In this document: one piece after another, positions 16,027 to 57,750 of the stretch
Layout of the letters: each line of letters begins with the position of its first letter
Position numbering within the stretch: the stretch's first letter is position 1
From: Sandaracinaceae bacterium
GTDB taxonomy: Bacteria; Myxococcota_A; Polyangia; Polyangiales; Sandaracinaceae
Assembly (NCBI GenBank): GCA_040218145.1
Contig: JAVJQK010000135.1
Span: forward strand, 1-64,000
Direction: 5' to 3'
Length of the DNA: 64,000 nt
Notes under the pieces: model-generated
What the model was told of the DNA's origin: nothing
Databases searched by the model: none
What the model saw: only the letters and a program-made list of their open reading frames with translations
Position numbers and translations under genes: made by a program

Positions 16027-17427
16027 GTGAGGGCCTACCTGTTCGCAACGCTCGTCGCGCTCGCCGCGATGGCGCCAGGGGCATCGTTCGCGCAGGTCGG
16101 CGCCGAGGCGTCCTCGGCGGGGGTGGAGGCGCAGGCGCCTCGACCGGCGACGGAGCGCCGCGCGGTGCCAGACTACGACGGCCGGCCCGACGCCGGGCCG
16201 AGCGCGGAAGACGTCTTGATCTGGATCCCGCGCATCCTGCTCGGGCCCGTGCACCTGGTGCTCGAGTACCTCGTGCGCGCGCCGCTCGGCGCGCTCTTCA
16301 CGGCGATGGAGCGTGAGGAGTGGCACGTGCTGCTGGCCGACTTCTTCACGTGGGACGAGCGGCACGCGGGCCTCGTGCCGACCGCGTTCTACGACTTCGG
16401 CTTCGCGCCCAGCGTGGGGCTCTACTTCTTCTGGAACGACGTGGGCGCGCCGGGGCACCAGCTCCGCGTCAGCGGGAGCTTCGGCGGGATCGACTTCCTG
16501 CGCGCCAGCGTCTGGGACCGGGTGCTCCTGTCGCGCGCGGGGCAGGTGGAGTGGACCACTCGGGTGGAGGCGAGCACGCGCCCGGACCGGGTGTTCCAGG
16601 GGCTCGGCGCGCTGAGCCGCCAGGAGGATCGGGCCCGCTTCGAGCACTCCTTCGTCGAGGGGCTGGTCCGCCTCGACATCCACCCCTGGCGAGGCAGCCG
16701 GCTCGGCGTGCAGGCGGGCGTCGGCTGGCAGTCGTACGACCCTGACGGATACGCGCCGGTGAGCGACGACCCCTCGCTGGCGACCGCGGTGCAACAGGGG
16801 CACATCTCGGGCCTGCCGCCGGGCTTCGGCGGCTACGTCGCGTATCGGCAGCGGCTCGAGCTGCGGCTCGACACCCGGGAGGTGCCGCCCGCCCCGCGGC
16901 ACGGGATCAAGATCGACGCGCTGGTCGAGCAGGGCGTCGATCTCACCTCCGTCGTCGACCGCCGCTGGATCCGCTACGGCGGCGTGGCGAGCGCCTTCGT
17001 CGACGTGGGGAACGAGCGCGTCTTCTCGCTGCACGTGGTGGCGGAGCTCGCCGATCCGCTCGGCGAGGCCGACGTGCCGTTCCTCGAGCAGGCCACGCTC
17101 GGCGGCTCCATGCTGCGGCTGCCGGGCTTCCTGCAGAACCAGCTCATCGGGCGGAGCGCCACCGTGGCCACGCTCCGCTACACCTACCCGGTCTGGGTCT
17201 ATCTCGACGCGAGTCTGTTCGTGTCGGCCGGCAACGTCTTCGACGCCCACTTCTCGGACTTCGATCCGGAGCGGCTGCGCCTCGCCTGGGGCTTCGGGCT
17301 CGCCTCGATCGGAGATCGCGACCACGGCTTCGAGCTGACGCTCGCCTTCGGGACCACCCCCTTCGTGCTCGGCGCGACCGTCGAGTCGGTGCGGTTGATG
17401 GTCGGTGGGCAGGCGGGTGTCTTCTGA
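16027..17427 (+). CDS. BamA/TamA-type outer membrane beta-barrel protein without POTRA domains
   Basis: 466 residues from a GTG start. Signal peptide to ASFAQ (~residue 22). An unusual conserved-looking stretch (~50-100) follows with hydrophobic helical text (IWIPRILLGPVHLVLEYLV, then EREEWHVLLADFFTW). The rest is a chain of alternating beta-strands of the Bac_surface_Ag type (RLELRLDTREVPPAPRHGIK is the usual penultimate region), ending in the aromatic Phe expected of an outer-membrane barrel. No POTRA repeats precede the barrel, unlike BamA/TamA. The next gene begins 25 bp later behind a GAGGAG site, so barrel and kinase-like lipoprotein are almost certainly one operon. Confidence 0.8.
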   Translation: MRAYLFATLVALAAMAPGASFAQVGAEASSAGVEAQAPRPATERRAVPDYDGRPDAGPSAEDVLIWIPRILLGPVHLVLEYLVRAPLGALFTAMEREEWHVLLADFFTWDERHAGLVPTAFYDFGFAPSVGLYFFWNDVGAPGHQLRVSGSFGGIDFLRASVWDRVLLSRAGQVEWTTRVEASTRPDRVFQGLGALSRQEDRARFEHSFVEGLVRLDIHPWRGSRLGVQAGVGWQSYDPDGYAPVSDDPSLATAVQQGHISGLPPGFGGYVAYRQRLELRLDTREVPPAPRHGIKIDALVEQGVDLTSVVDRRWIRYGGVASAFVDVGNERVFSLHVVAELADPLGEADVPFLEQATLGGSMLRLPGFLQNQLIGRSATVATLRYTYPVWVYLDASLFVSAGNVFDAHFSDFDPERLRLAWGFGLASIGDRDHGFELTLAFGTTPFVLGATVESVRLMVGGQAGVF

Positions 17428-17452
17428 GGATGGCTTCCCGAGGAGATCGATC

Positions 17453-19090
17453 ATGCACAGGTTCTTCATCGCGCTCACGCTCGCCCTAGCCACCGCCTGC
17501 GGCGGCGGGGTCCGACAGTTCGCGCTCCAGGAGCCGCTCTGGCAGGACGATGACCGGCAGCCGTTCACGCCGCGTCCTCCGCAGGCGCGCTACGCCCCGT
17601 ACTTCTGGGACGCGATGGACAACATGATCTTCCGTCGCGCGTCCGAGGCCTTCACCTTCGAGCTCTCTCAGGAGGCCATCGACGTCAACGCGCTCGACGA
17701 GGTGCCGGACAGCAGCTGGTTCCACAACCGCATCGGGCGGTGGGGCATGGCCCCCGCGGAGCTCGCGCGCGGCGCCTGTGGTGAGGAGACGGGCCCACCG
17801 CCTGGCCCGTGGCGCGTCGTCGGCGGCAAGCCGGACGGCGCCACGCCGGGCTTCCTCATCGAGTCGGCGGACGGTACGCGCTACCTGCTCAAGACGGACC
17901 GCGCGGGGCAGCGCGAGCAGGCGACGGCGGCCGACGCCATCGCGGCCGCGGCCTACCACGCGGCGGGGTATCACGTGCCTTGCAATCGTGTAGTGTTCTT
18001 CCGGCCCGACGTGCTCGAGCTCGCGCCCGACGCCGAGGTGAGCGGCTCCGATCGACCCCTGACGGAGGAGGACGTGCGAACGGTGCTGGAGGGGGCGACC
18101 GAGGGGCCCGACGGGACGCGGCGCGCGGTGCTCAGCCGGTTCATCGAGGGCACGCCGCTCGGACCCTGGAGCTACACGGGCACGTGGGACCTCGACGCGA
18201 ACGATGTGGTGCCCCACGAGCGTCGGCGCGAGCTGCGCGGCATCTACGTCCTGAACGCCTGGCTGGATCACTGGGACTCGCGTCAGCACAACACGCTCGC
18301 GGCGTGGATCGAGGCGCCCGGCGGCGGCGGGCACGTGCGGCATTACCTGATCGACTTCGGCGAGTGCATGGGCATGGTCGAGGCGCCGCATCGCCGCGGT
18401 CCGCGCATGGGGCACAGCGTGTGGCTCGACTTCGGGCACGTGGTCGAGGACACGCTGGGGCTCGGCATCGTCCAGCGCGCCTGGGATGGCCGGGAGCGAC
18501 ACCCGGTGCTCGGCTACTACGGCGTCGCGCACTTCGACCCCGACGGCTGGACCCCGCAGTACTGGAACGGCGCGCTCGACCGGCGCACGGCCCGGGACGA
18601 GGCGTGGGGCGCGCGTATCCTCGCGCGGTTCCGCGATCCGCACATCCGCGCGATGGTGTCCCTCGGTCACTTCTCCGATCCGGAGGTCGCCGAGCGCCTC
18701 GAGGGCATCCTGCGCAGTCGCCGCGACCGGGCGCTCGAGCGCTACCTGATGGCGCTCTCGCCGCTCACGGAGCCCGCGCTGCGTCAGAACGACGAGGGGA
18801 GGGCGGAGCTCTGCCTGACCGACCTCGCGGTCCACGCGGGGCTCCGGACGCGGCGTCTCTACACCGCCCGGCTCCTGCACGCGGGGGCCACGCGGTCGCT
18901 CGAGACGCGTCGCCAGGAGGAGGGCGTCTGCGTCGCGTTCCCCTCGATCGACGGGGAGGGCGGCTCCACCGACTACGCGATCGTCGAGGTCGACGCGGCC
19001 AGCCCGGGGCGCGACGAGTCGCGGCGGCTCTCACTCCACTTCTACGTCACCGGTCCCGACCGTCTCCGGCTGGTCGGCCTCGAGCGCTGA
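17453..19090 (+). CDS. lipoprotein with protein-kinase-like catalytic residues
   Basis: 545 residues. Lipoprotein signal (MHRFFIALTLALATAC). The middle of the protein shows the spacing of a kinase-like fold: RYLLKTD (K147, beta-3 lysine), LDHWDSRQHN (D275 and N280, catalytic-loop Dx4N) and YLIDFGE (D301-F-G, metal-binding). Such sets occur in HipA, FAM20C/CotH-like and PI3/4-kinase-like families. I do not recognise the exact family. ORFs around it carry no cytoplasmic targeting, so the domain would sit outside the inner membrane, where ATP is scarce. It follows the barrel gene by 25 bp. Its last 60 bp overlap the convergent porin gene. Function as a kinase, AMPylase or pseudo-enzyme is open. 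Confidence 0.7.
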   Translation: MHRFFIALTLALATACGGGVRQFALQEPLWQDDDRQPFTPRPPQARYAPYFWDAMDNMIFRRASEAFTFELSQEAIDVNALDEVPDSSWFHNRIGRWGMAPAELARGACGEETGPPPGPWRVVGGKPDGATPGFLIESADGTRYLLKTDRAGQREQATAADAIAAAAYHAAGYHVPCNRVVFFRPDVLELAPDAEVSGSDRPLTEEDVRTVLEGATEGPDGTRRAVLSRFIEGTPLGPWSYTGTWDLDANDVVPHERRRELRGIYVLNAWLDHWDSRQHNTLAAWIEAPGGGGHVRHYLIDFGECMGMVEAPHRRGPRMGHSVWLDFGHVVEDTLGLGIVQRAWDGRERHPVLGYYGVAHFDPDGWTPQYWNGALDRRTARDEAWGARILARFRDPHIRAMVSLGHFSDPEVAERLEGILRSRRDRALERYLMALSPLTEPALRQNDEGRAELCLTDLAVHAGLRTRRLYTARLLHAGATRSLETRRQEEGVCVAFPSIDGEGGSTDYAIVEVDAASPGRDESRRLSLHFYVTGPDRLRLVGLER

Positions 19091-55872: not shown

Positions 55873-57750
55873 GTGACGCTCCTCGCGCATGAGAAGGCTC
55901 GCTACCTCCGGACGCCGACGCTGGCGGCGGGGGAGGGCGGCCCCGAGCTGCGCGTCATCGCCTGCGGCCCCGAAGGGGAGTCCCTGCTCGCGTTCCCGCT
56001 CGAGGGGGAGGCGCTCGGCGCGCCGCGTGAGCTCGCGCGACAGGACGTCATCGTCGCGCTCGGTCGGGGCGAGCAGCCGCTTCCGGTCGCGCTCGATCCG
56101 AGCGAGGCGCACTCCAGGGGCGGGTGGCGCGTGTGGATCACGCGGGGTGACGGCCGCACGACCGTGTGGGCGTCCGACGGCGCGCGAGACACGCGGGTCT
56201 GGGAGGCGTGGGGGACCGCCGCCGCGCCGTACGTCGCGCCGGCCGAGGGCGGCGCGTGGGTCGCGTTCCATCACAACGTGCGCGAGGACACCGGCGAGCC
56301 CGACCTGAGCAAGTGGGTCGCGCTCCGCTTCGTCACCGACGCGGGCGACGTGAAGGCGCCGTCCGCGCCGATGACGGATCGCGATCGAGACCGCGAAGGC
56401 GAAGAGCAGGGCTGGGAGCTGCCCACGCTCGTGGTCGGAGACGACGGCGCGGTGGCGATCTGGGGCCGCGGCAGCCACGCGTTCTTCCGCCAGGATCTGA
56501 CAGCCGACGGCTTCTCGGCCCGCGCGCCCATCGGCTCGACCGGCTGGGGATGCCGGGGGCGATGGGTCAGCGCGCTGCGCGACGGAGCGCGGGTGATCAC
56601 CGCGCGTCGCGAGAAGCCGGGCGTCGAGATCGCGTTCGAGGCGCTCCCCGCGGGAGGCCCGCCCGCGCTCGAGCCGGCCGAGGTGCAGCTGCCCGAGCGC
56701 CCGCACCGCGACGTGCCCGCGCGCCCCACCGGCCCCGACCCGGCGGCGAAGGACGGCCGCCGCACGCTCTTCGGCGACATCCACCAGCACTCCGCGCACT
56801 CGGACGGCTGCGGTACCGCGGACGAGCCCTACCTGCGCGCGCGGTACGTCTACGGCGACGACTTCTGCGCGCTGACGGATCACGAGAGCTTCATCGGCAA
56901 GCGCATCGGCGAGGGCGAGTGGGCGTACCTGCAGGAGATCGCCAACCGTCACGACGAGCCGGGCACCTTCGCCACGCTGCTCGCGTACGAGTGGACGGGC
57001 CGCATGTACCCGGGCCCTGGGCACAAGGTCGTCTACTTGCCCCCCGACGGCGGGCCGATCGTGAGCCGCGACGACGTGCCCGAGGGCAAGGAGCTGGTCG
57101 CGCGCGTCAAGGCGCTCGGCGGCTTCGCGGTCCCGCACCACGTCGGATGGACGGGGGCCGACGAGGAGGCGCACGACGAGGAGGGGCAGCCGGTCTGGGA
57201 GATATGCTCCTGCCACGGCTGCTATCTGACCGCGGACCACCCGCTGGGCGGGCGCGGCGACCTGCGCGATCAGATGGTCGACGCGGTGATGCGGCGCGGC
57301 AAGCGCTTCGGCTTCATCGCCTGCAGCGACGGCCACGGCCTGCTCTATCACCACGGCGTAGGGCGCAAGCGCGACCCGTTCCGATGCGGGCTCACCGCGG
57401 TCCAGGCCGAGGACTGCACGCGGGAGGCGATCCTGTCGGCCATCCGCGAGCGGCGCTGCTACGCGACCAGCGGCGTGCCGATCCTGCTCGACCTGCGGGC
57501 GGGCCCGGAGGAGGCGCCGATGGGCTCCGCGCTCGAGGTCGACGGTCCCGTCGACGTGCGGGCCGAGGTCCGCTGCGCGACGGAGCTGGAGAGCCTCTCG
57601 CTCGAAGGCCCGGACGGTCCCATCGCGACGGTGTCGGGGCAGGGTCGCACGCACGCGGTGCTCGAGGCGCGGGTCGAGCCGGGCTGGGTCTACGCGCGCG
57701 CCGAGCAGCGCGACGGCGAGATGGCCTGGTCTTCGCCGATCTTTCTGTAG
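55873..57750 (+). CDS. PHP/DUF3604-type putative metal-dependent hydrolase
   Basis: 625 residues from a GTG start. The N-terminal ~280 residues are a beta-rich domain. A PHP-like metal centre follows: GDIHQHSAHSDG (H304, H306), CALTDHESF, VPHHVGW and ACSDGHGLLYH. DUF3604 proteins carry this PHP-like histidine set; reactions on phosphoesters or related substrates are assumed. No signal peptide is visible, unlike its lipoprotein neighbour. It lies 9 bp behind the sulfatase-like gene. A strong hairpin directly at its stop (57751-57782) ends the operon. Confidence 0.85.
   Translation: MTLLAHEKARYLRTPTLAAGEGGPELRVIACGPEGESLLAFPLEGEALGAPRELARQDVIVALGRGEQPLPVALDPSEAHSRGGWRVWITRGDGRTTVWASDGARDTRVWEAWGTAAAPYVAPAEGGAWVAFHHNVREDTGEPDLSKWVALRFVTDAGDVKAPSAPMTDRDRDREGEEQGWELPTLVVGDDGAVAIWGRGSHAFFRQDLTADGFSARAPIGSTGWGCRGRWVSALRDGARVITARREKPGVEIAFEALPAGGPPALEPAEVQLPERPHRDVPARPTGPDPAAKDGRRTLFGDIHQHSAHSDGCGTADEPYLRARYVYGDDFCALTDHESFIGKRIGEGEWAYLQEIANRHDEPGTFATLLAYEWTGRMYPGPGHKVVYLPPDGGPIVSRDDVPEGKELVARVKALGGFAVPHHVGWTGADEEAHDEEGQPVWEICSCHGCYLTADHPLGGRGDLRDQMVDAVMRRGKRFGFIACSDGHGLLYHHGVGRKRDPFRCGLTAVQAEDCTREAILSAIRERRCYATSGVPILLDLRAGPEEAPMGSALEVDGPVDVRAEVRCATELESLSLEGPDGPIATVSGQGRTHAVLEARVEPGWVYARAEQRDGEMAWSSPIFL

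Follow-up and report, generated by a model that had tools for sequence, protein, structure and literature searches.

A putative envelope phosphorylation system combining a kinase-like lipoprotein, a POTRA-less Omp85 barrel and ATP/ADP carriers

Introduction

Processes in the periplasm and at the outer membrane are generally taken to run without ATP. A 64,000-nucleotide stretch of DNA from a Sandaracinaceae bacterium (positions 1 to 64,000 of contig JAVJQK010000135.1), referred to here as the window, carries two adjacent genes that may put this view in question, the first for an outer-membrane barrel and the second for a lipoprotein with kinase-like catalytic residues. Is the lipoprotein a kinase, does it reside outside the cytoplasm, is the barrel its partner, and what would supply it with ATP? 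We address these questions by comparing both proteins with their homologues, with known folds and with known systems.

Results

The two-gene locus

The original prediction was that the lipoprotein gene follows a BamA/TamA-type barrel gene by 25 bp, and this arrangement is confirmed in the window: the gap is 25 bp, both open reading frames lie on the plus strand, and the residues K147, D275, N280 and D301-F-G are correctly numbered when counted from the ATG at 17453. The features of the locus are as follows.

16027..17427, plus strand: POTRA-less Omp85-superfamily barrel gene, 466 amino acids, GTG start, Sec-type signal sequence
17440..17445, plus strand: GAGGAG, likely ribosome-binding site of the lipoprotein gene, read directly
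17453..19090, plus strand: kinase-like lipoprotein gene, 545 amino acids, ATG start
17498..17500, plus strand: lipobox cysteine C16 of the lipoprotein, outer-membrane-type sorting signal
17891..17893, plus strand: K147, predicted ATP-binding lysine, in 100/101 homologues and aligned to the HipA_2 lysine
18194..18238, plus strand: signature D248-x2-D251-x3-H255-x2-R258-R259-x2-R262, just N-terminal of the catalytic loop
18275..18277, plus strand: D275, predicted catalytic-loop aspartate, in 100/101 homologues and aligned to the HipA_2 aspartate
18290..18292, plus strand: N280, predicted metal-binding asparagine of D-x4-N, in 100/101 homologues
18353..18355, plus strand: D301 of the DFG motif, predicted metal-binding aspartate, in 99/101 homologues and aligned to the HipA_2 aspartate

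The barrel protein comprises a signal peptide (residues ∼1–23), a set of conserved hydrophobic or amphipathic helices (60–107) and a 16-strand barrel (114–462). The lipoprotein begins with the lipobox Cys16 and a conserved N-terminal segment, followed by a kinase-like domain (∼112–435) and a C-terminal β-sandwich (∼436–545).

The lipoprotein is predicted to adopt a kinase-like fold

Using a 31-sequence alignment as input, the AlphaFold2 model of the lipoprotein had a pLDDT of 90.2 and a pTM of 0.91. Structure comparison of this model with VIA-align gave CtkA as the best match (Z = 15.1 over 234 residues, within the range 113–442), with further matches to Fam20 kinases (Fam20C, Z = 13.6), PI4K-IIα (12.8), HipT (11.5) and HipA (∼10). 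These kinases rank above most other matches and cover residues ∼112–435, in keeping with the kinase-like fold first proposed for the protein. A profile of 101 homologues matched HipA_2 proteins with pairwise E-values of ∼1e-5, placing K147, D275, N280 and D301 on equivalent residues. The fold assignment rests on these two comparisons because the kinase profile, when compared by sequence with solved structures, found no real relative, and Foldseek gave weak and mixed matches to the model (best E = 2.7e-3). No member of the family reached any Pfam or NCBIfam cut-off; among 31 members, none scored above the curated cut-off of HipA_2 (PF20613), with one at E = 0.18, and none matched the Pfam families Fam20C, HipA_C, PI3_PI4_kinase or CotH up to an E-value of 1.

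Conservation of the putative catalytic residues, on which the original prediction depended, proved near-invariant, with K147, D275, N280 and D301 all intact in 99 of the 101 homologues. Only 30 of the 511 alignment columns are at least 98% conserved, and the chance of all four named columns falling among them is ∼1e-5. The signature residues D248, D251, H255, R259 and R262 are invariant, and R258 is present in 100/101 homologues. The candidate for the α-C glutamate, E155, is 69% conserved, which is too low for assignment. Two features of the protein kinase-like (PKL) superfamily are found here, namely a two-lobed fold (in the model) and a conserved lysine, catalytic aspartate, asparagine and DFG aspartate. 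Model and alignment together support the kinase reading, and we infer that the lipoprotein probably transfers phosphate by catalysis, with ATP as the likely donor.

The same fold could instead serve AMPylation or another transfer, or could catalyse nothing and regulate the barrel as an ATP-sensing scaffold; kinase-fold families do include AMPylases and glutamylases (PMC10870513). Two homologues depart from the catalytic set: L130, which carries D301G, and L028, in which all four residues are lost (to E, S, S and H) and the barrel partner is nonetheless retained, as a scaffold would allow. However, the catalytic-loop aspartate and the D-x4-N spacing fit phosphotransferases, and the full set is lost in just 1/101 homologues, making this explanation quite unlikely. 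L028 (genome G040, C1:1769003-1770460) provides a natural pseudokinase control, and the carrier described below (NTT) was not found in its genome.

A different kinase-like family, uncharacterised and with a weak HipA_2 match, was also observed in L154, L155, L160 and the window's own genome (L156, contig C37, near 56799–56963), with motifs like GNWDRFSGGN...RDHNVAF. In what follows, ‘kinase’ is shorthand for the putative kinase lipoprotein of the window and its homologues.

The lipoprotein is predicted to reside at the outer membrane

A residue other than aspartate at position +2, directly after the lipid cysteine, is the usual outer-membrane sorting signal. The lipobox of the window lipoprotein reads LATAC16, the cysteine is present in 90/100 homologues, and the residue following it is chiefly alanine, glycine or serine across the family and aspartate in none. 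By sequence, then, the protein has a signal peptide, a lipobox and no aspartate at +2, as is characteristic of outer-membrane lipoproteins. Two further pairs of cysteines are informative: Cys109 and Cys177 are both present in 86 homologues, both missing in 15 and single in none, while Cys454 and Cys493 are both present in 88, both missing in 12 and single in 1. Being kept or lost as units, these pairs are likely to form disulfides, which points to an oxidising compartment and fits the proposed location outside the cytoplasm. The best reading of these features is that the lipoprotein is anchored in the outer membrane and disulfide-bonded, and probably faces the periplasm or the cell surface.

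The barrel partner is an Omp85-type protein without POTRA domains

The barrel open reading frame matches Pfam Omp85 with an E-value of 4.6e-8 (33.4 bits against a cut-off of 24), and its AlphaFold2 model (pLDDT 89) shows helices at 60–107 followed by 16 strands from 114 to 462. The model aligns to BamA residues 423–810 (Z = 23), and the barrels of BamA, TamA and Sam50 match it at Z = 21–23 over residues 113–464; with a Pfam match above cut-off and a BamA-type 16-strand barrel, the protein belongs to the Omp85 superfamily. No POTRA domain was found in it, since residues 24–112, upstream of the strands, hold only a linker and the helices, and the barrel model thus agrees with the POTRA-less architecture originally described. 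The L6 RG(F/Y) motif, like the POTRA domains a mark of the BamA and TamA subfamilies of Omp85, is absent from the window barrel, which has LPGF, and arginine occupies that column in 39/64 homologues. The helices at 60–107 are conserved at least as strongly as the barrel part. Both the missing L6 arginine in many members and the conservation of the helices make it doubtful, on sequence grounds, that the barrel is an ordinary insertase.

Kinase and barrel genes are paired across phyla

The window's genome contains the kinase six times and matches to the barrel five times, the latter including one short remnant; four of the kinase copies adjoin a full-length barrel (barrel first in two, kinase first in two). 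Among 57 related genomes, a barrel lies within 2 kb of 34/38 kinase copies, in either gene order. Co-occurrence of the two genes, proposed at the outset as a check, is strong in this set: the barrel (E < 1e-25) is present in 18/18 kinase genomes and in only one other (Fisher p = 6e-14). A recognisable barrel also sits beside the kinase in 64 of the 80 named loci, which come from Myxococcota, Acidobacteriota and Calditrichota. The pairing of kinase and barrel is real and recurs across phyla.

Several individual loci depart from the simple pair. Three barrel-less kinases (G014:C140, G037:C97 and G052:C9) are each in a genome that has an equally unpaired barrel elsewhere. L109 has a tandem barrel-kinase-barrel-kinase arrangement, and L134 has two kinase genes behind one barrel. 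Behind one kinase paralogue of the window's genome (contig C1, L207:3042-3452) is a 137-residue frame that matches the N-terminal helices of the barrel protein, and may be what is left of a barrel gene or else a helix domain that stands alone. A candidate barrel-kinase fusion in one frame (L092:670-3603) was rejected, as the internal lipoprotein signal peptide is kept and the end of the barrel is lost, making an assembly or frameshift error likelier than a fusion.

A predicted ATP/ADP carrier is linked to the pair

Clustering of neighbouring genes revealed, outside the window, a gene for an NTT/Tlc-type ATP/ADP carrier in many kinase loci. The linked carriers exceed the Pfam TLC cut-off (up to 1e-15), and their profile matches solved ADP,ATP carriers over the full length (9j3n, E = 9e-40; 9j3j, 1.3e-33). 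An NTT lies within ∼6 kb in 34/80 loci, rising to 20/33 among loci with full flanks. In the 57 related genomes, 13/38 kinases have an NTT within 10 kb against 0.37 expected, with shared ancestry ignored. An independent, phylum-wide sample gave a similar picture, where an NTT is within 3 kb of the kinase in 7/10 further kinase genomes (G061, G081, G091, G124, G132, G149 and G157), and NTTs occur in 14/16 kinase genomes and 25/126 kinase-less genomes (p = 1.5e-7, again ignoring shared ancestry). The latter figure indicates that NTTs have other roles too.

The order of the three genes varies (T-B-K, B-K-T and K-B-T, where T is NTT, B barrel and K kinase), and this variation over several phyla is better explained by function than by inherited order alone. 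In the culturable, non-pathogenic Sorangium cellulosum So0157-2 (L102), kinase, barrel and NTT are side by side. No NTT was found near the window locus; the window's genome has three NTT genes elsewhere, none of them near any kinase. No NTT was found in genome G037, whose kinase is intact, or, at an E-value cut-off of 1e-60, in the kinase-bearing genome G153. Two NTTs, one single-domain and one long (∼740–1095 amino acid open frame), lie near the pair in L074, L080, L087, L095 and L104, and the same arrangement was seen in L112, L113, L121 and L133.

These linkages bear on whether the two genes could simply be a surface-lipoprotein export pair, in which a barrel of the SLAM/Type XI or BamA-RcsF type exports a lipoprotein cargo that is kinase-active outside the cell, the link to NTT being incidental. 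The one-to-one, adjacent pairing in either order would suit such a function, the conserved segment that directly follows the lipid cysteine might direct export, and a BamA-RcsF structure is among the structural matches of the barrel. Yet the NTT linkage is far above chance, the barrel is of the Omp85 type and not DUF560, and an enzyme outside the cell would be without ATP, so that we consider an export pair rather unlikely.

Phosphatase genes among the other neighbours

A long PAP2-superfamily phosphatase (∼410–480 amino acids) is encoded near the kinase in ∼14/80 loci, for example L095, L103, L122, L123, L125 and L130. These counts include only hits scoring above ∼180 outside the kinase gene, other frames of which were also caught by the profile, and three of the neighbours were confirmed by Pfam. 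Metallophosphatase genes neighbour the pair in three loci. The PAP2 genes are a hint, from gene neighbourhood, that the substrate may be a lipid phosphate or similar. Ser/Thr kinase genes, one of the groups obtained by clustering the neighbours, lie near 16 loci; such genes are abundant in myxobacteria.

Phosphatase neighbours would also suit the scavenging of nucleotides or phosphate, with the lipoprotein binding extracellular nucleotides, the barrel serving as the outer-membrane route and the NTT importing them. Many of the relatives belong to the myxobacteria, which are known as predators. Against this, the full catalytic set in 99/101 homologues exceeds the needs of a binding protein, and we know of no nutrient pores among Omp85 barrels. 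Although the NTTs of intracellular bacteria do import nucleotides (PMC5381601), scavenging seems to us quite unlikely.

Discussion

Taken together, we consider it probable, if by no wide margin, that these genes form an envelope phosphorylation system, in which a kinase lipoprotein at the outer membrane acts with a barrel and receives ATP by way of an NTT. The lipoprotein would be a HipA/CtkA-like kinase using periplasmic ATP, and the POTRA-less barrel would be its dedicated outer-membrane partner, which may hold the kinase, present it or let its substrate through. An NTT, encoded beside the pair in many genomes and elsewhere in that of the window, would move ATP out of the cytoplasm through the inner membrane in exchange for ADP, and such a supply of periplasmic ATP would account for the fuel of a kinase outside the inner membrane. 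Its target may be a lipid or a surface glycan or protein, a guess prompted by the PAP2 neighbours. Both the direction of NTT transport and the role of the barrel are what we infer from these associations. The fuller statement, that in a free-living lineage NTTs export ATP to the periplasm and that targets in the envelope or on the surface are modified by an outer-membrane kinase paired with an Omp85 barrel of its own, is made more tentatively, at somewhat less than an even chance.

If true, some bacteria would bring ATP to the periplasm on purpose, breaking the rule of an ATP-free periplasm. It would also give a function to the NTTs that free-living bacteria carry and to their HEAT fusions, and a role to a POTRA-less Omp85 barrel.

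Comparison with known systems

A search of the open literature, a body from which subscription journals and preprints are mostly absent, found nothing on an outer-membrane kinase with an NTT or barrel, or on HipA-like lipoprotein kinases in myxobacteria; for periplasmic phosphorylation it returned mainly work on the lipid A enzyme LpxT and unrelated papers.

HipA and HipT are cytoplasmic. HipA_2 (PF20613), HipA and HipT share the kinase-like fold with our protein, and the lysine, D-x4-N and second aspartate align, whereas ours is a predicted exported lipoprotein with a C-terminal β-sandwich, two cysteine pairs and the D-x2-D-x3-H-x2-RR-x2-R signature. CtkA and PI4K-IIα are among the best fold matches at an identity of ∼10–12% to our lipoprotein, and to our knowledge neither has a lipobox or a barrel partner. 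Fam20C acts outside the cytoplasm, with ATP delivered by transporters. This secretory-pathway kinase has the fold in common with our protein, but is eukaryotic, ∼10% identical and without a barrel.

Characterised NTTs come from intracellular parasites and plastids, and those of parasites import ATP. NTTs and NTT-HEAT fusions in free-living bacteria have been reported with function unknown (PMC5381601); our linked genes likewise match solved carriers over the full length and occur in single-domain and long forms, whereas no link to an outer-membrane kinase was found in the passages of that paper considered here. PMC4104836 lists POTRA-less ‘noNterm’ Omp85 proteins and suggests that they act as insertases; they have the same 16-strand BamA/TamA-like barrel. 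Ours differs from them in its extra conserved N-terminal helices, its link to a kinase and, in many members including that of the window, the missing L6 RG(F/Y) arginine. SLAM/Type XI secretion (PMC9100927) also pairs a barrel with a lipoprotein cargo, but its barrel belongs to the DUF560 family, and ours is Omp85.

Judged by Pfam, NCBIfam and solved structures, each of the parts appears to belong to a new or little-known family with a familiar fold. The combination of kinase, barrel and NTT appears to be undescribed as a system, and its novelty lies at the level of that system and not in the folds from which it is built.
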